Positions 57,877-64,000 of a stretch of 64,000 bases of DNA are shown here, in pieces. Where the stretch lies: positions 1 to 64,000 of the forward strand of contig NZ_JABKCA010000016.1 of assembly GCF_013166655.1 (NCBI RefSeq), read 5' to 3'. The notes beneath the pieces are model-generated. The model was given only the letters and a program-made list of their open reading frames with translations. It searched no databases and had not been told where the DNA came from. Origin of the DNA: Lentimicrobium sp. L6. Its GTDB lineage: Bacteria; Bacteroidota; Bacteroidia; Bacteroidales; UBA12170. Within the stretch, counting starts at the first letter, position 1. Every line of letters starts with the position of its first letter. Both the position numbers and the translations under genes were made by a program.

Positions 57877-60657
57877 TTAGTCCATCCACTTTTTAAAAAC
57901 CTTTTTCATATCTTCAAAATTTACTGGTTTAGAAATAAAATCTTTCATCCCAGCATTTAAACATTGTGCTTCAGACTCCCCTAATACATTTGCTGTCATG
58001 GCAAATATCAATGGTGCTTTTCTCCCTAAGTCCTGATGATGTTTGAGAATATTTCTAGTAGCATCCAAACCATCCATTTCAGGCATTTGCACATCCATTA
58101 AAATTATGTCATAATCTTTTTCCATACAAGCTTCCACAGCCAAGCGACCATTCACCGCCAAGTCGGCTTCTAAGCCTAGGTTCTTTAACTGACTCAATGT
58201 TACTTTCTGATTGATTAGATTATCCTCGGCAACTAATATCTTTAACTCCGATAACTTAAAGCTAGAATCCGTCTTAGCTAGAATCATTTTATTTCTATCA
58301 TCCTCTAATAATCCCATAGCTAACCTAATGGAACGACATAATTTATGCTCGCGGGCAGGTTTCATTAAATAGATATTAAACAAATCTCTTTCTTGTGGAC
58401 TAAAATCTACTTTAATACTAGAAAGAATAATGATCGGAAGAGCAGAAAAGCCTGATGTAGTTCTTATTTTCGAAGCTACCTCAATACCTAAACAATCGGG
58501 CATCTGCATATCTATAATTGCTAAATCGATATTTAGTACTTCAAATTTCTCTATGGCCAATAAAGGATCTTGAAAAGCAAAAACCTCAAATCCCCAAATA
58601 GACAATTGCTTCGTTAAAATGGTTAAATTGGTTTCATTATCATCAAGTATTAAAGCTCTTTTATTTTCAAATATGCATTCATCAGATATGTTTCCTGGTA
58701 AATGTTCCGACTTGTCCATCTTTGCAAGAATAGTGAAATAAAATACAGACCCTTTGTTTTCTTCCGACTCCAGTCCAATTTGGCCACCTAATAAATTTAC
58801 CAATTGCTTACTGATGGCTAATCCTAAGCCAGTACCCTCAAAGCGTCTTGCAATACTTGCATCCACTTGTGAAAACGATTGGAACAAACGATCAATCTTA
58901 TCCTTTGGAATACCGATGCCTGTATCTTTCACTCTAAACTCTACTTCAACACCCTCCTCCGAGCTGTTTATTATTCCAAGATGCAGCAGAATTTCTCCCT
59001 CAAAAGTGAACTTTATGGCATTATTTATCAAATTAACAAGTACTTGTTTTAACCGATGTGGATCAGAAATAATATATTTCGGCAAATTATCATCATAAGT
59101 TAACAAAAGCTCCAGTTTCTTTTTTGCTGCAGTAGAGGAAAGCAGAGCGAGTACATCTTCGGCCGTTTCTACTAAATTGAAACTTTGCAATTCCAACTCC
59201 ATTTTTCCTTGCTCAATCTTAGAGTAATCTAAAATATCATTAATTACGGTCAATAGATTATCTCCACTTATTTTTATAGTTTCCACATACTCAAATTGCT
59301 CCTTTGTAAGATCCGTGCGTTTTAGAAGATCTGTCATTCCAATGACACCATTCATAGGTGTTCTGATTTCATGACTCATAGTAGCCAAAAACTCTGCTTT
59401 AACCTTAGCTCCTTGCTCAGCTTTTAGTTTGGCTTGCTTAAAATAATAAGCAAATTGATAAGATAGAATTAGAGATTGAAAGAAAAAGAATAATAAATAC
59501 CCAATGAAATACCAATAAGGATAAGCAGGTAAATAGCCCATATAATTCAAGATATGAGTTACAAAAACACTAAAAAGGACAAGAACACTTATTATTCCAT
59601 AAAAAGATCCTGCTCTCTTTCGATAAGCAGCAAAAACAAAAATCCATGTTCCATAGGCTATATAAACAAATAAAATCCCAAAAAATGGTAATATCAAAAA
59701 GGTGAAAATTTTACTACTTAAGAAAATGGTGATAAATACCAATACCAATGACATGGCTTTTAAAACATTGGCTGCCCACTTTTTGGTTTCTTGTGGATAT
59801 ACCGATTGAATAAAAAGCATAAAAAAGAAGGGACTCAAAAACAAGGTAATATATTCTAGCCTTACCGTCAGGTGCCAACTTAAATTTGGGAATATGGAAT
59901 GAAGATAATACTCCCCTGTCCCGATAATCCTATAGCTGTAAACCAAACAAAACATGCTAAAATATAAAATAGCTTTATTATGCCTACCAAAAATAAACAA
60001 CCCCATAAAAAACAATCCTCCCATGAGTAATGCTCCTGTCAAAAGCAGATCTATACCAATAAGTTTTTCTCTTTCCTGAAGTACATTTTTGGCTTTACCT
60101 AAAAGTGGAGGTATAATAAGACCACCTTTACTATGATGAAAATTAGAGATTAGAATAACGAGTTCCATACTATCTGAATGAACCCGAAAGGGATATGCTT
60201 GAGGAAGCCAATGCGGAACTGACTCTTCCTCTTTGTCAGATACCACACCATTCTTAGCAATGAGCTTTCCATCCATATAAAATTCATAAGCAGAATAGAA
60301 GTCATGAAGCCTAAAGGCGAGTATTTCATTGGTTTTGGGCATCAGTAAGGTCAATCGGTAAGTTGCATATCCATAAGATGAATAGGAATCACCCTCCAAA
60401 TCACCCCAAAGGTGAGGGAAGTAAAGATATTCTGGATTCATATTCAAAATAAACTGGTGTGGCCTTATCAGTTTATTCCAATAAAACTCCCATTCCCCAG
60501 GTAATTCAATAATACTTTTCTCATCCCAATCACGCAGATCTAAAACACCATTTTTAGCATATATCCCATTATTTCCAACATCAGTTGCCGCTCCAAAAAG
60601 AGGAAATACCAAACAAAGAAGCCAACAACCGATAATATTTCGAGCTAATAGGAACAT
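57877..60657 (-). CDS. Hybrid histidine kinase: 7TMR-DISM sensor, HisKA, HATPase, 2xREC
   Basis: This 926-residue kinase has a signal peptide and a periplasmic 7TMR-DISM extracellular beta-sandwich (about 35-190, [11 protein letters not shown] and ATYRLTLL). Seven hydrophobic helices (about 200-400) follow, then HisKA with [15 protein letters not shown] (His near 427) and HATPase with [17 protein letters not shown] and GTGLGLAI. Two receivers start near 672 (LILDDNE, acceptor in AIIDMQMP) and 811 (LVAEDN, acceptor in [12 protein letters not shown]). Extracellular DISM domains are thought to bind carbohydrates, which would suit a glucan-rich locus, but the ligand is unknown. It is transcribed away from the stressosome operon and could share its regulation or feed into it (inference). 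Confidence 0.93.
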
Positions 60658-60764: not shown

Positions 60765-60795
60765 TTGTTTTTATTAACCAAAATCATTACATTTA
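60765..60795 (+). promoter_or_regulatory. Promoter of the stressosome operon
   Basis: TTG at 60765-60767, 20 bases, then TACATTTA at 60788-60795, one mismatch from the -7 consensus, 32 bases before the ATG at 60828. No other good promoter is seen before the following tightly packed genes. Confidence 0.6.
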
Positions 60796-60827: not shown

Positions 60828-61193
60828 ATGAAACATAAAATTTGGTATGATGACAAAACTGGAATTACCTTCATAGAGTTTGTTGGTGATTACTTAAGAA
60901 AGGATGTTGAAGAAGTCATTAATACAGTAAAAGAAAAATTTGAAGGAAAACCCTATAAACAATTACTCACCATAATGAGTATTAACGACAAAGTCGAAAA
61001 CAGAGAAACTCGTGAAGCTTCAAGCAAAGGATTAGCCACAACAGGAGCAACCGATATTGCCTTTGTTGGTGGGAGTGCCGCAAACAGAATGGTAGCAAGA
61101 GTCTTAATCAAAACAGGTGTTATTAAAATAAATGGTGACTTTTTCAAATCTGAAGAAAAAGCTATAGAATGGTTGAAAAGTAAAAGATCATAA
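60828..61193 (+). CDS. SpoIIAA-like/STAS-related protein leading the stressosome operon
   Basis: 121 residues from the ATG at 60828; the frame is open from 60765, but that part covers the promoter. It resembles the SpoIIAA-like (STAS/SEC14-type) family: an opening strand pair (KIWYDDKTGITFIEFVGDYL), a central helix and strand (IAFVGGSAANRMVARVLI), and the typical ending FFKSEEKAIEWLKSK. It lacks the DS/DT phosphosite motif found in RsbS and RsbR, so it is probably not a phosphorylated antagonist of the classical type. It starts the operon, four bases before rsbR, so it may be an accessory stressosome subunit or input protein. That role is inference; fold assignment is moderately sure. Confidence 0.75.
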   Translation: MKHKIWYDDKTGITFIEFVGDYLRKDVEEVINTVKEKFEGKPYKQLLTIMSINDKVENRETREASSKGLATTGATDIAFVGGSAANRMVARVLIKTGVIKINGDFFKSEEKAIEWLKSKRS

Positions 61194-61197
61194 AAAA

Positions 61198-61884
61198 ATG
61201 GAAGAAAATTTAGAATTATCAAATGTAAAAGCACGCATCGATCATATTGAAGATGTACTTTCATCAGTAGCTGCTGGAGATTTAGATATCAGAGTTGAAT
61301 CAAATATTGAAGATGATCTCACTGGTATTGAAGAAGCTATTAATATTTTAATTGACGATCTCACCTATGAGCTCAAACAAAGTATTAATATGCAAAATGA
61401 TCTTCAAGAAAAACTAAAGAAAATCCAAGAACAACAAAAGACTATTGTTCAACAACAAGAAGATTTAATGGAACTTTCGAGTCCTGTAAGTAAAGTTTGG
61501 GACAATATCCTCATCCTTCCTGTAATTGGAACTTTAGATAGCCAAAGAACTCAAATCATGATGGAGAATCTTCTTCAAAAAATTGTGGATACCAGTTGCA
61601 CCATGGCCATTCTTGATATCACTGGAGTACCGACTGTTGATACTCAAGTGGCAAATCACCTTTTAAAAACAGTAACTTCTGCAAGGCTTTTAGGCGCCGA
61701 TTGTATCATCAGCGGAATTAGTCCTGCTATAGCACAAACCATTGTTCACCTTGGAATTGATTTATCTATCATTAGAACCAAAGCAACATTACAAGACGCC
61801 ATGATTTATGCTATGAAGCAAAATAAAAAATCGGGAGCAGTCATAGCAAGTAGTATGGAAGAAATAGAAGAAAGAGAGGAATAA
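61198..61884 (+). CDS. rsbR: RsbR-type stressosome protein with HAMP-like coiled-coil N-terminus
   Basis: 228 residues. The C-terminal STAS domain (about 95-212) aligns well with Bacillus subtilis RsbRA: GTLDSQRTQIMMENLL, LDITGVPTVDTQVANHLL and GISPAIAQTIVHLGIDLS. The two RsbT target sites align as S115 (Thr171 in RsbRA) and T149 (Thr205). The sensor half differs: instead of a non-heme globin domain, residues 15-60 look like a soluble HAMP unit (AAGDLDIRV...DDLTGIEEAINILIDDL), followed by a Gln-rich coiled coil (60-92). No transmembrane helix, so cytosolic. Its stop overlaps the rsbS start by one base (TAATG). Confidence 0.9.
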   Translation: MEENLELSNVKARIDHIEDVLSSVAAGDLDIRVESNIEDDLTGIEEAINILIDDLTYELKQSINMQNDLQEKLKKIQEQQKTIVQQQEDLMELSSPVSKVWDNILILPVIGTLDSQRTQIMMENLLQKIVDTSCTMAILDITGVPTVDTQVANHLLKTVTSARLLGADCIISGISPAIAQTIVHLGIDLSIIRTKATLQDAMIYAMKQNKKSGAVIASSMEEIEEREE

Positions 61885-62270
61885 TGGATCATTTTCAAGA
61901 AAAAAAGATCCCTATTATAAAAATAGGCTCATATTTAATCGTATCTATTCAGGTAGATATGCACGACAAACTTGCCCTCCAATTACAATCTCAAATTCTA
62001 AATGAAATTGAGAAAACAGGAGCCAAAGGAGTTCTAATTGATATTTCTGTTTTAGAAATGGTAGATAGTTTCATTGGCAGAATGCTTTCAGGAATGGCAT
62101 CTATGGCAAGCATTATGGATGCGGCTGTAGTAATTGTAGGTATGCAACCAGCAGTAGCAATAACCCTAGTAGAACTCGGCCTCGAAATGCCAGGAGTTGA
62201 TACCGCATTAAATATGGAACGAGGAATGGAGCTTCTTGAAAGAAGAATGGCCTCCATCAATGATGATTAA
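61884..62270 (+). CDS. rsbS: RsbS-type stressosome scaffold (STAS)
   Basis: This 128-residue single STAS domain is closely like Bacillus RsbS along its length: IPIIKIGSYLIVSIQVDM at the start, ETGAKG-like KTGAKGVLIDISVLEMVDSFIG with the phosphosite S62 (Ser59 in Bacillus), and VGMQPAVAITLVELGLEM near the end. RsbS forms the stressosome core with RsbR and holds RsbT until stress-induced phosphorylation frees it. It is coupled to rsbR and is followed 12 bases later by rsbT. Confidence 0.93.
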   Translation: MDHFQEKKIPIIKIGSYLIVSIQVDMHDKLALQLQSQILNEIEKTGAKGVLIDISVLEMVDSFIGRMLSGMASMASIMDAAVVIVGMQPAVAITLVELGLEMPGVDTALNMERGMELLERRMASINDD

Positions 62271-62282
62271 AAAGTTCAGACT

Positions 62283-62708
62283 ATGCAAGCTTTTGAATAT
62301 GATAGCGATTGGACTGAGCTGGGTGTTTTTCCTGTGAAAACAGAAAACGATATAGTAAAAGTTCGTCAAATGGCACGACAGTATGCCAAGGATTTCAAAA
62401 TGGGAATCGTTGAGCAAACTCGAATAACCACGGCTGTTAGCGAACTACTCAGAAACATGTACCAATACGCAAATGGAGGTGAAGTAACCATTAACCAAGG
62501 TTATTTCGATGGGCATAATGCACTCATATTTACCTTTGAAGACCAAGGCCCAGGAATAGAAAACCTTGATTTGGCCATGAGCGATGGCTATACCTCTGGA
62601 GGCGGTATGGGTTATGGCTTACCTGGGGCAAAACGACTGGTAGACTCCTTTGAAATAAGAACAGAAGTAAATACTGGAACACTAATTCGACTCATGAAAT
62701 GGAAGTAA
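62283..62708 (+). CDS. rsbT: RsbT-type serine/threonine kinase
   Basis: This 141-residue GHKL-fold kinase should phosphorylate the RsbR and RsbS STAS domains and then leave the complex. N-box: TTAVSELLRNMYQYA with N58. G1 box: FEDQGPGI with D87. G2 box: SGGGMGYGLPGAKRL, the RsbT-specific loop, and the ending TLIRLMKWK matches Bacillus RsbT. In Bacillus freed RsbT activates the phosphatase RsbU. Here the next gene carries a PP2C domain and overlaps rsbT by 10 bases. Confidence 0.94.
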   Translation: MQAFEYDSDWTELGVFPVKTENDIVKVRQMARQYAKDFKMGIVEQTRITTAVSELLRNMYQYANGGEVTINQGYFDGHNALIFTFEDQGPGIENLDLAMSDGYTSGGGMGYGLPGAKRLVDSFEIRTEVNTGTLIRLMKWK

Positions 62709-63760
62709 AACGAAGTCATATTTTAAGTTTCCCTATAGATAATGAATCTGATGTTGGAGTCTGTCGAAGGAAGTCAGCTGTACTGGCTTCCCAAATAGGT
62801 TTTAACCAAGTAAAAACTGGTGAAATTGCAATTATTGTAACAGAGTTAGTTACCAATGTATTAAAACATGGTGGAGGCAGCGGAAAAGTAGTTATCTGCC
62901 AATTAGAAAATAACATCAACCAAAAAGCCATTGAGCTTTGGTGTTGTGATTCTGGGGAGGGAATTTCAAATTTTAATGATGTGCTTAAAGATGGAGTAAG
63001 CAATGCTAATACATTGGGACTTGGCTTAGGAAGCATTAGAAGATTTAGCGATGAATTAGAAGTAAATCCGGAACCTCATTCTGAAATTAATGAAATCTAT
63101 TTTGACGATTTACATACTTTTAAAAACTGTATAAGATCACGTAAATGGTTACCACCTAAACAATGGTTAGGAAACAATTCAAAATTAGAAACGGGTGTGG
63201 CATCCAGACCAAAACCTGGTGAAACCTTAAATGGTGATGGCCATGTCATTACTCATATTAACTCAAACAATTGTGTTGCAGCTTGTATCGATGGTTTAGG
63301 TCATGGAAAAGAAGCCAATATCGCTTCCCAACTCGCCAAACAAGCCATCATACAAAAAGCAGAACTTCCTCTCGATGCTTTAATGAAAAACATTCACCAA
63401 TCTATTAGAGGAACAAGAGGAGTGGTTATGGGTTTAGTTTCCATAAATACAGAACAAGAAAAAATATCATTTTGTGGAACTGGAAACATTGAAAGTTTTT
63501 TAATGACAAACAATGGTAAACAAAATTTACTTTCCTTTGGAGGGATAATGGGGCATAATATGAGAACTCCACGGGTTTTTGAATTTCCTTTTAAAGCAGG
63601 AGATTCCCTTTGTATGTACTCCGATGGAATTACCTCTCGATGGAAACACGAAGATATAGACTGGACTTTAGCTCCACAAAAGAATGCCGAATATATTTTA
63701 AATCAATTTTCTAGATCCAATGACGACGCTACCGTTCTTATCATCAGCCACACTTTATAA
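62699..63760 (+). CDS. GHKL ATPase-SpoIIE/PP2C phosphatase fusion (RsbX/RsbU-like)
   Basis: 353 residues in two parts. Residues 1-135 are an RsbT/RsbW-like ATPase: N-box TELVTNVLKHGG (N53), G1 CCDSGEGI (D84), G2 NTLGLGLGSIRR. Residues 160-353 are a PP2C/SpoIIE-type phosphatase: CIDGLGHGKEANIAS with D198, GVVMGLVSINTEQEKISF, MYSDGITSRW and the ending NDDATVLIIS. The small phosphatase half resembles RsbX, which resets the stressosome by dephosphorylating RsbR and RsbS; it could instead act downstream like RsbU. The added ATPase half may phosphorylate the same or another STAS protein, giving kinase and phosphatase on one chain (inference). It overlaps rsbT by 10 bases and the next gene by 41. 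Confidence 0.88.
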   Translation: MEVKRSHILSFPIDNESDVGVCRRKSAVLASQIGFNQVKTGEIAIIVTELVTNVLKHGGGSGKVVICQLENNINQKAIELWCCDSGEGISNFNDVLKDGVSNANTLGLGLGSIRRFSDELEVNPEPHSEINEIYFDDLHTFKNCIRSRKWLPPKQWLGNNSKLETGVASRPKPGETLNGDGHVITHINSNNCVAACIDGLGHGKEANIASQLAKQAIIQKAELPLDALMKNIHQSIRGTRGVVMGLVSINTEQEKISFCGTGNIESFLMTNNGKQNLLSFGGIMGHNMRTPRVFEFPFKAGDSLCMYSDGITSRWKHEDIDWTLAPQKNAEYILNQFSRSNDDATVLIISHTL

Positions 63761-64000
63761 TGTAGGCGAACTTAAGATTCAATTTGAGTCAGATGTGGTT
63801 CGTGGTCGTAATTTGGGCTCCATGTTAGCTCAAGAAATAAAGTATGACAATACGAACAAAATTCGTATTGGAACCACAATATCTGAACTTACCAGAAATA
63901 TTATTGAACATGCAAGTCATGGAACCCTAAACTTTTCAATTGCAACTCGAGAAAGAGGCTCCGATGGCTTGGTTCTTGTCTTTGCTGATCAAGGAGACGG
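63720..64000 (+). CDS. GHKL ATPase-domain protein, 3' end cut by window edge
   Basis: An open frame starts at ATG 63720 and runs off the right edge, giving 93 visible residues. The beginning (MTTLPFLSSATLYNVGELKI) is followed by an RsbT/RsbW-like ATPase: TISELTRNIIEHASHG (N-box) and VFADQGDG (start of the G1 box). The frame begins 41 bases inside the previous gene, an unusually long overlap that points to tight coupling; a later start such as a non-ATG codon near 63760 cannot be excluded. In known Bacteroidota RST modules the following genes often carry two-component kinase domains, so this may be the N-terminus of a hybrid kinase output protein. Confidence 0.75.
   Translation, partial: MTTLPFLSSATLYNVGELKIQFESDVVRGRNLGSMLAQEIKYDNTNKIRIGTTISELTRNIIEHASHGTLNFSIATRERGSDGLVLVFADQGD

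Follow-up and report, generated by a model that had tools for sequence, protein, structure and literature searches.

Except for the blue-light and oxygen sensors, the route by which stress signals enter the stressosome is still an open question (PMC3944199, PMC9237108). The N-terminal domains of RsbR form turrets on the STAS core, where they are assumed to bring in the signal, and RsbT, once released, acts on downstream proteins; rsbRSTX modules with varied output modules are known in Bacteroidetes (PMC9237108, PMC9237128, PMC3944199). The window analysed here, a stretch of 64,000 nucleotides from Lentimicrobium sp. L6, contains an rsbRST operon whose RsbR has no sensor domain and whose first gene encodes an additional protein of 121 residues. 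What does this protein contribute to such a stressosome? Our results suggest that, in one branch of the Bacteroidales, the gene preceding the sensor-less stressosome encodes a probable external source of the missing input.

The operon and its first gene

The operon comprises the following genes.

60828..61193, + strand: 121-aa protein of predicted STAS/SpoIIAA fold, stressosome-linked subfamily of DUF7793 (PF25056), with N58 at the STAS phosphosite position (from family matches, orthologue alignment and model)
61198..61884, + strand: rsbR, with a HAMP-like segment (about residues 10-55), a long coiled-coil helix (38-94) and a STAS domain (98-201), without RsbRD_N, globin or PAS sensor
61884..62270, + strand: rsbS, a single STAS domain with a DS phosphosite (D61-S62)
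62283..62708, + strand: rsbT, a switch kinase of the HATPase_c_2 type
62699..63760, + strand: RsbT-like HATPase domain fused to a SpoIIE/PP2C phosphatase domain, in the position of RsbX
63720..64000, + strand: start of a hybrid histidine kinase of 756 aa, with an RsbT-like N-terminal domain, HisKA/HATPase and two receiver domains

The original prediction placed a gene of 121 residues at the head of the operon, four bases before rsbR. This reading holds, as the ORF at 60828-61193 is separated by four bases from the rsbR ATG at 61198, and the order rsbR-rsbS-rsbT was confirmed. The rsbRST module is complete, with PF01740 and HATPase_c matches and with invariant V-D-T (RsbR) and D-S (RsbS) motifs. 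The RsbT-like/PP2C fusion is the probable feedback phosphatase and the hybrid histidine kinase the probable output of the operon. The kinase gene extends past the window (contig 63720-65990). In its N-terminal part, the product shows a relationship to RsbT (36% over 129 residues), and the histidine-kinase regions and two receiver domains downstream of this part were read by eye.

From 62283 onward, the operon thus encodes three RsbT-like ATPase domains, those of RsbT, the PP2C fusion and the hybrid histidine kinase fusion, and fusions related to the last two also occur in sensor-type Bacteroidota operons. A 926-aa 7TMR-DISM hybrid histidine kinase is encoded divergently from the operon (57877-60657, - strand). 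Two congeneric genomes have a counterpart of it at the same place (84% and 63% identity), and none was found beside the other four loci described below, as far as their stretches reach. On the other side, a 747-aa protein that, as read by eye, has TPR repeats and a SpoIIE/PP2C-type phosphatase domain is encoded convergently to the last operon gene (contig 65987-68230, - strand). No consensus match to a Bacteroidota-type promoter was found before the 121-aa gene, and the pattern is no commoner than chance across the window.

The start codon of the 121-aa protein is ATG60828, with M1 and H3 invariant across seven orthologues; given this conserved start, a longer reading from a TTG at 60765 is unnecessary. 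The protein matches DUF7793 (PF25056) at E 6e-8, with 33.1 bits against a Pfam gathering score of 26, and falls just under the cut-off for the SpoIIAA-like family (PF11964, 23.9 bits against 25). At E up to 0.01, PF25056 is matched by all seven orthologues and PF11964 by six of them, and the Pfam search returned no match to the STAS model (PF01740) in the protein or its orthologues.

An AlphaFold model built with the alignment of the seven orthologues is fairly confident (mean pLDDT 83, pTM 0.79) and has the STAS/SpoIIAA element order b1-b2-a1-b3-a2-b4-a3-b5-a4. The top PDB matches of this model in Foldseek are the SpoIIAA chains 1th8_B and 1thn_B, from complexes with SpoIIAB (1th8_B: E 4.5e-4, Foldseek probability 1.00, with a modest TM of about 0.6). 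Bacillus subtilis RsbS (6jhk), the Listeria stressosome (6qcm) and the SiaC-SiaD complex (7e6g_D) rank lower, the match to SiaC being weaker than that to SpoIIAA. The predicted fold is that of SpoIIAA/STAS, and to this extent the SpoIIAA/SEC14-like label of the original prediction was right. RsbRD_N is a helical domain, and the a/b STAS fold of the model therefore rules out that the 121-aa protein is a detached RsbRD_N. We identified no ligand pocket or cofactor motif in it.

A viral fold search returned structure-level relatives from giant viruses at weak to moderate scores (BFVD A0A481YWR6 and A0A076FFQ2), one giant-virus relative being annotated as DUF7793 (Marseillevirus LCMAC201); these weak structure-level matches gave no lead.

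Conservation of the gene in front of rsbR

Orthologues of the 121-aa protein were found in two of the ten congeneric genomes searched (G002, G003) and, by direct search, in one genome of the order (G086). A single-sequence search added only a Paludibacter MAG, and two further orthologues (G496, G541) were reached via RsbS. With the window, this gives seven loci spanning at least four genera plus a Paludibacter MAG. Gene order is identical in all seven (DUF7793, RsbR, RsbS, RsbT, RsbT-like/PP2C, RsbT-like/histidine kinase), with 2-6 nt between the DUF7793 stop and rsbR, and the genes upstream of the operon vary between genera while the DUF7793-rsbR adjacency stays. A PF25056 search of six of the seven genomes revealed one copy in each, always that of the operon. 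In a tree of the STAS domain of RsbR together with RsbS, the seven loci form a single clade (support 0.993).

We conclude that the 121-aa gene very likely belongs functionally to the rsbRST operon. Its operon linkage is well supported, and its proposal as an undescribed stressosome-linked component is borne out by the position directly before rsbR in 7/7 orthologues and by the absence of any other DUF7793 in the six genomes searched. The expectation that homologues would sit next to rsbR across Bacteroidota failed, as the arrangement is confined to one Bacteroidales clade.

The wider family behaves differently. At E up to 0.001, the subfamily profile matched in 29 of 395 class-level genomes, nearly all matches being remote DUF7793-type relatives; besides the window genome, 28 of the 395 Bacteroidia genomes carry DUF7793. 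RsbS was found in nine of the 395, and at the thresholds used the two sets overlap in the window genome only, which rules out a stressosome role for the DUF7793 family as a whole. The neighbours of the remote relatives include no rsbRST genes and show no dominant function, and in two genomes with a sensor-type stressosome (G162, G242) the DUF7793 gene sits on a different contig. Because the wider family does not occur with rsbRST, the stressosome linkage is restricted to a single orthologous subfamily within DUF7793. The original prediction had named homologues lying mostly without rsbRST as evidence against a stressosome role; this is what we observed for the whole family, and the reverse for the orthologous subfamily, which never occurs without rsbRST.

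Proteins of the wider family in other Bacteroidia share with the subfamily their length, fold signature, an E-x-R after the phosphosite position and conserved F106 and W115. They differ in lying outside rsbRST operons, in having mostly S/T at position 58, and in a 'KPxxPTKxF' segment that is absent from the stressosome-linked subfamily. In none of the matches is DUF7793 fused to a STAS or kinase domain; one long frame of 375 aa (L031), considered as such a fusion, looks like an unrelated chance match. Three tandem DUF7793-like genes lie at L039:697-1875 in a Bacteroidia genome, with no rsbRST nearby.

That the wider family lives outside stressosome operons would agree with a protein of unrelated function captured by chance in the operon of one ancestor. 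Such an independent passenger is very improbable in our view, as the position before rsbR is kept in 7/7 loci despite differing upstream genes between genera, the gene is present in a single copy per genome (six genomes), and it bears the mark of purifying selection. In the least saturated pairs, dN/dS of the 121-aa gene is 0.13 (against the nearest orthologue) and 0.25, synonymous sites being near saturation in most pairs. Identity between the window and its orthologues is 34-73% for the 121-aa protein, compared to 74-91% for RsbR, 81-99% for RsbS and 62-94% for RsbT. The gene is under purifying selection, yet it is the most variable and fastest-evolving member of the operon.

These rates also bear on a structural role, in which the protein would be a third subunit of the STAS core or a cap altering the size, stoichiometry or attachment of the complex. 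A fold shared with the core subunits and membership in the operon agree with such a role. However, RsbR and RsbS have to pack together, and the protein diverges two to three times as fast as these two; profile comparison revealed no similarity to RsbR. We therefore regard a structural subunit as improbable, and the cap suggested in the original prediction gained no specific support. The fast divergence is what one would expect if specificity for the input drifted and the core remained constant.

Missing sensor and altered phosphosite

We searched 395 genomes at class level, 393 at order level and 296 at phylum level and found 16 other rsbRST loci. None of the 16 carries a DUF7793-like ORF within 3.2-3.4 kb around rsbR or rsbS. 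An RsbRD_N sensor is present on RsbR in 15 of these 16 Bacteroidota loci, compared to none of the seven DUF7793-type loci, and RsbR measures 276-335 aa in the former set of 16 and 227-229 aa in the seven. No RsbRD_N, globin or PAS match was found at the N terminus of RsbR of the DUF7793 type. Four of the seven have HAMP matches there (best E 1e-4), the window RsbR scoring below the Pfam cut-off, and its N terminus was modelled, at low overall confidence (pLDDT 71.5), as helices 7-25 and 38-94. Besides RsbR and RsbS, the window genome encodes two STAS domains, in ORFs of 554 and 544 aa whose size fits sulfate transporters; therefore, no sensor-bearing second RsbR was found elsewhere in the genome that could stand in.

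The distribution of the DUF7793 gene (7/7 vs 0/16) would have a probability of 4e-6 if the loci were independent, but the seven share one origin and form one clade, so that this figure is not an independent-sample p-value. Absence of the sensor and presence of the gene are essentially one evolutionary change of state, kept together since. Furthermore, kinases related to that of the last gene also follow the sensor-type operons examined, several of them with an RsbT-like start. The output is therefore common to both stressosome types, and the difference lies on the input side. Of the three roles first suggested for the protein (input sensor, cap, or mimic binding RsbT), the input role is favored because RsbR of this clade is without the sensor domain seen in 15 of the 16 RsbR from other Bacteroidota loci.

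The mimic has to be weighed at the phosphosite itself. In a profile alignment to 15 RsbS, which has weak statistics and is consistent with the model, E57-N58 of the 121-aa protein aligns on D61-S62 of RsbS, and R62 aligns on an arginine invariant in RsbS. Helix 2 of the window protein starts without a phosphorylatable Ser/Thr, in agreement with the earlier statement that a DS or DT phosphosite is lacking; position 58 is N in five of the seven orthologues and S in two. Among 29 DUF7793-like proteins from genomes without a DUF7793-rsbRST operon, 19 have S or T at this position. At this position, a hydroxyl residue is thus mostly kept in the wider family and largely lost in the stressosome-linked subfamily. 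However, S, T, N and D all commonly cap helices at a position of this kind.

E57, R59 and T61 are invariant within the subfamily and differ in the wider family, as do G81, L93 and G97, at or along helix 3. These subfamily-specific invariants sit on or beside the face that bears the phosphosite, namely the STAS phosphosite loop and the helices that follow it. In the SpoIIAA-SpoIIAB pair, this is the kinase-facing side. The protein could thus be an RsbT-binding decoy, a STAS pseudo-substrate that is unphosphorylatable at the phosphosite and buffers or titrates free RsbT through this face, as the predicted STAS/SpoIIAA fold, the Asn in place of phosphoserine in 5/7 orthologues against mostly S/T in the wider family, and the position of E57, R59, T61, G81 and L93 would allow. 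However, two of the seven orthologues carry Ser at position 58, which means that the lack of a phosphorylatable residue is not a constant feature. By sequence, the protein is weakly linked to RsbS (hhalign probability 5%), and a decoy leaves unexplained why RsbR of the same clade has no sensor. We consider this reading unlikely, if less so than a structural subunit or a passenger. The conserved residues of the phosphosite loop and helices fit RsbT binding and stalk docking equally well.

A proposed detached input subunit and known systems

A precedent for input supplied by a separate protein is known from SiaC. With its SpoIIAA fold, SiaC attaches to the coiled-coil stalk of SiaD, which has no sensory domain of its own, thereby 'functioning as a sensory domain of SiaD' (PMC8457831). 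By analogy, the 121-aa protein may be, at somewhat short of an even chance, a detached input subunit of the SiaC type, docking on the coiled-coil stalk of the sensor-less RsbR. Lacking an N-terminal sensor of its own, RsbR of this clade has a long coiled-coil stalk and a HAMP-like segment in front of the STAS core. The 121-aa protein would most likely supply the input in trans, docking on the stalk or at the junction of stalk and STAS domain and thereby shifting RsbT between bound and released states; released RsbT would act on the downstream histidine kinase, and the PP2C protein would reset the phosphosites. Stalk docking and the direction of its effect are what we infer, the docking by analogy with SiaC. 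We also propose, tentatively, that stressosome input has moved from RsbR to a separate, non-phosphorylated STAS-fold protein on the RsbR stalk, a detachable sensor replacing the fixed turret.

If this is true, a sensor-less RsbR and a separately encoded small soluble protein would allow the input to be added or withheld in vitro, making signal entry into the stressosome complex directly testable, and one branch of DUF7793 would gain a functional context. Our literature search, which covered openly accessible papers, found no paper that mentions DUF7793 and none with a DUF7793, SpoIIAA-like or STAS-fold gene heading rsbRST.

Among other small accessory proteins, the Listeria miniprotein Prli42 is reported to work together with the stressosome as its membrane anchor; it has no STAS fold and is not encoded in the rsbR operon. 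With the single-domain STAS antagonists SpoIIAA, RsbV and RsbS, the 121-aa protein shares the predicted fold, the element order and a phosphosite loop where helix 2 begins, but it has no DS/SS phosphosite and belongs to PF25056/PF11964, with PF01740 unmatched.

The rsbRSTX operon of Vibrio vulnificus resembles that of the window in encoding RsbR, RsbS, RsbT and, directly downstream, a PP2C phosphatase; the putative output, a histidine kinase with receivers, comes next (PMC9237108). However, its RsbR bears an N-terminal haem globin sensor, and no additional gene of STAS fold is described ahead of it (PMC9237108). In the window, RsbR is without a sensor domain, DUF7793 comes first in the operon, and the phosphatase and the kinase each bear an RsbT-like domain.

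The closest functional parallel that we draw is with SiaC/SiaD of Pseudomonas aeruginosa (DUF1987), in which a small SpoIIAA-fold protein is likewise encoded with a sensor-less partner that has a long coiled-coil stalk (PMC8457831). SiaC acts as the input of SiaD, and the 121-aa protein is likened to it by analogy only. SiaC belongs to another family, is regulated by phosphorylation at T68 and targets a diguanylate cyclase (PMC8457831), whereas the 121-aa protein has Asn at the phosphosite position in most orthologues and its target would be RsbR.
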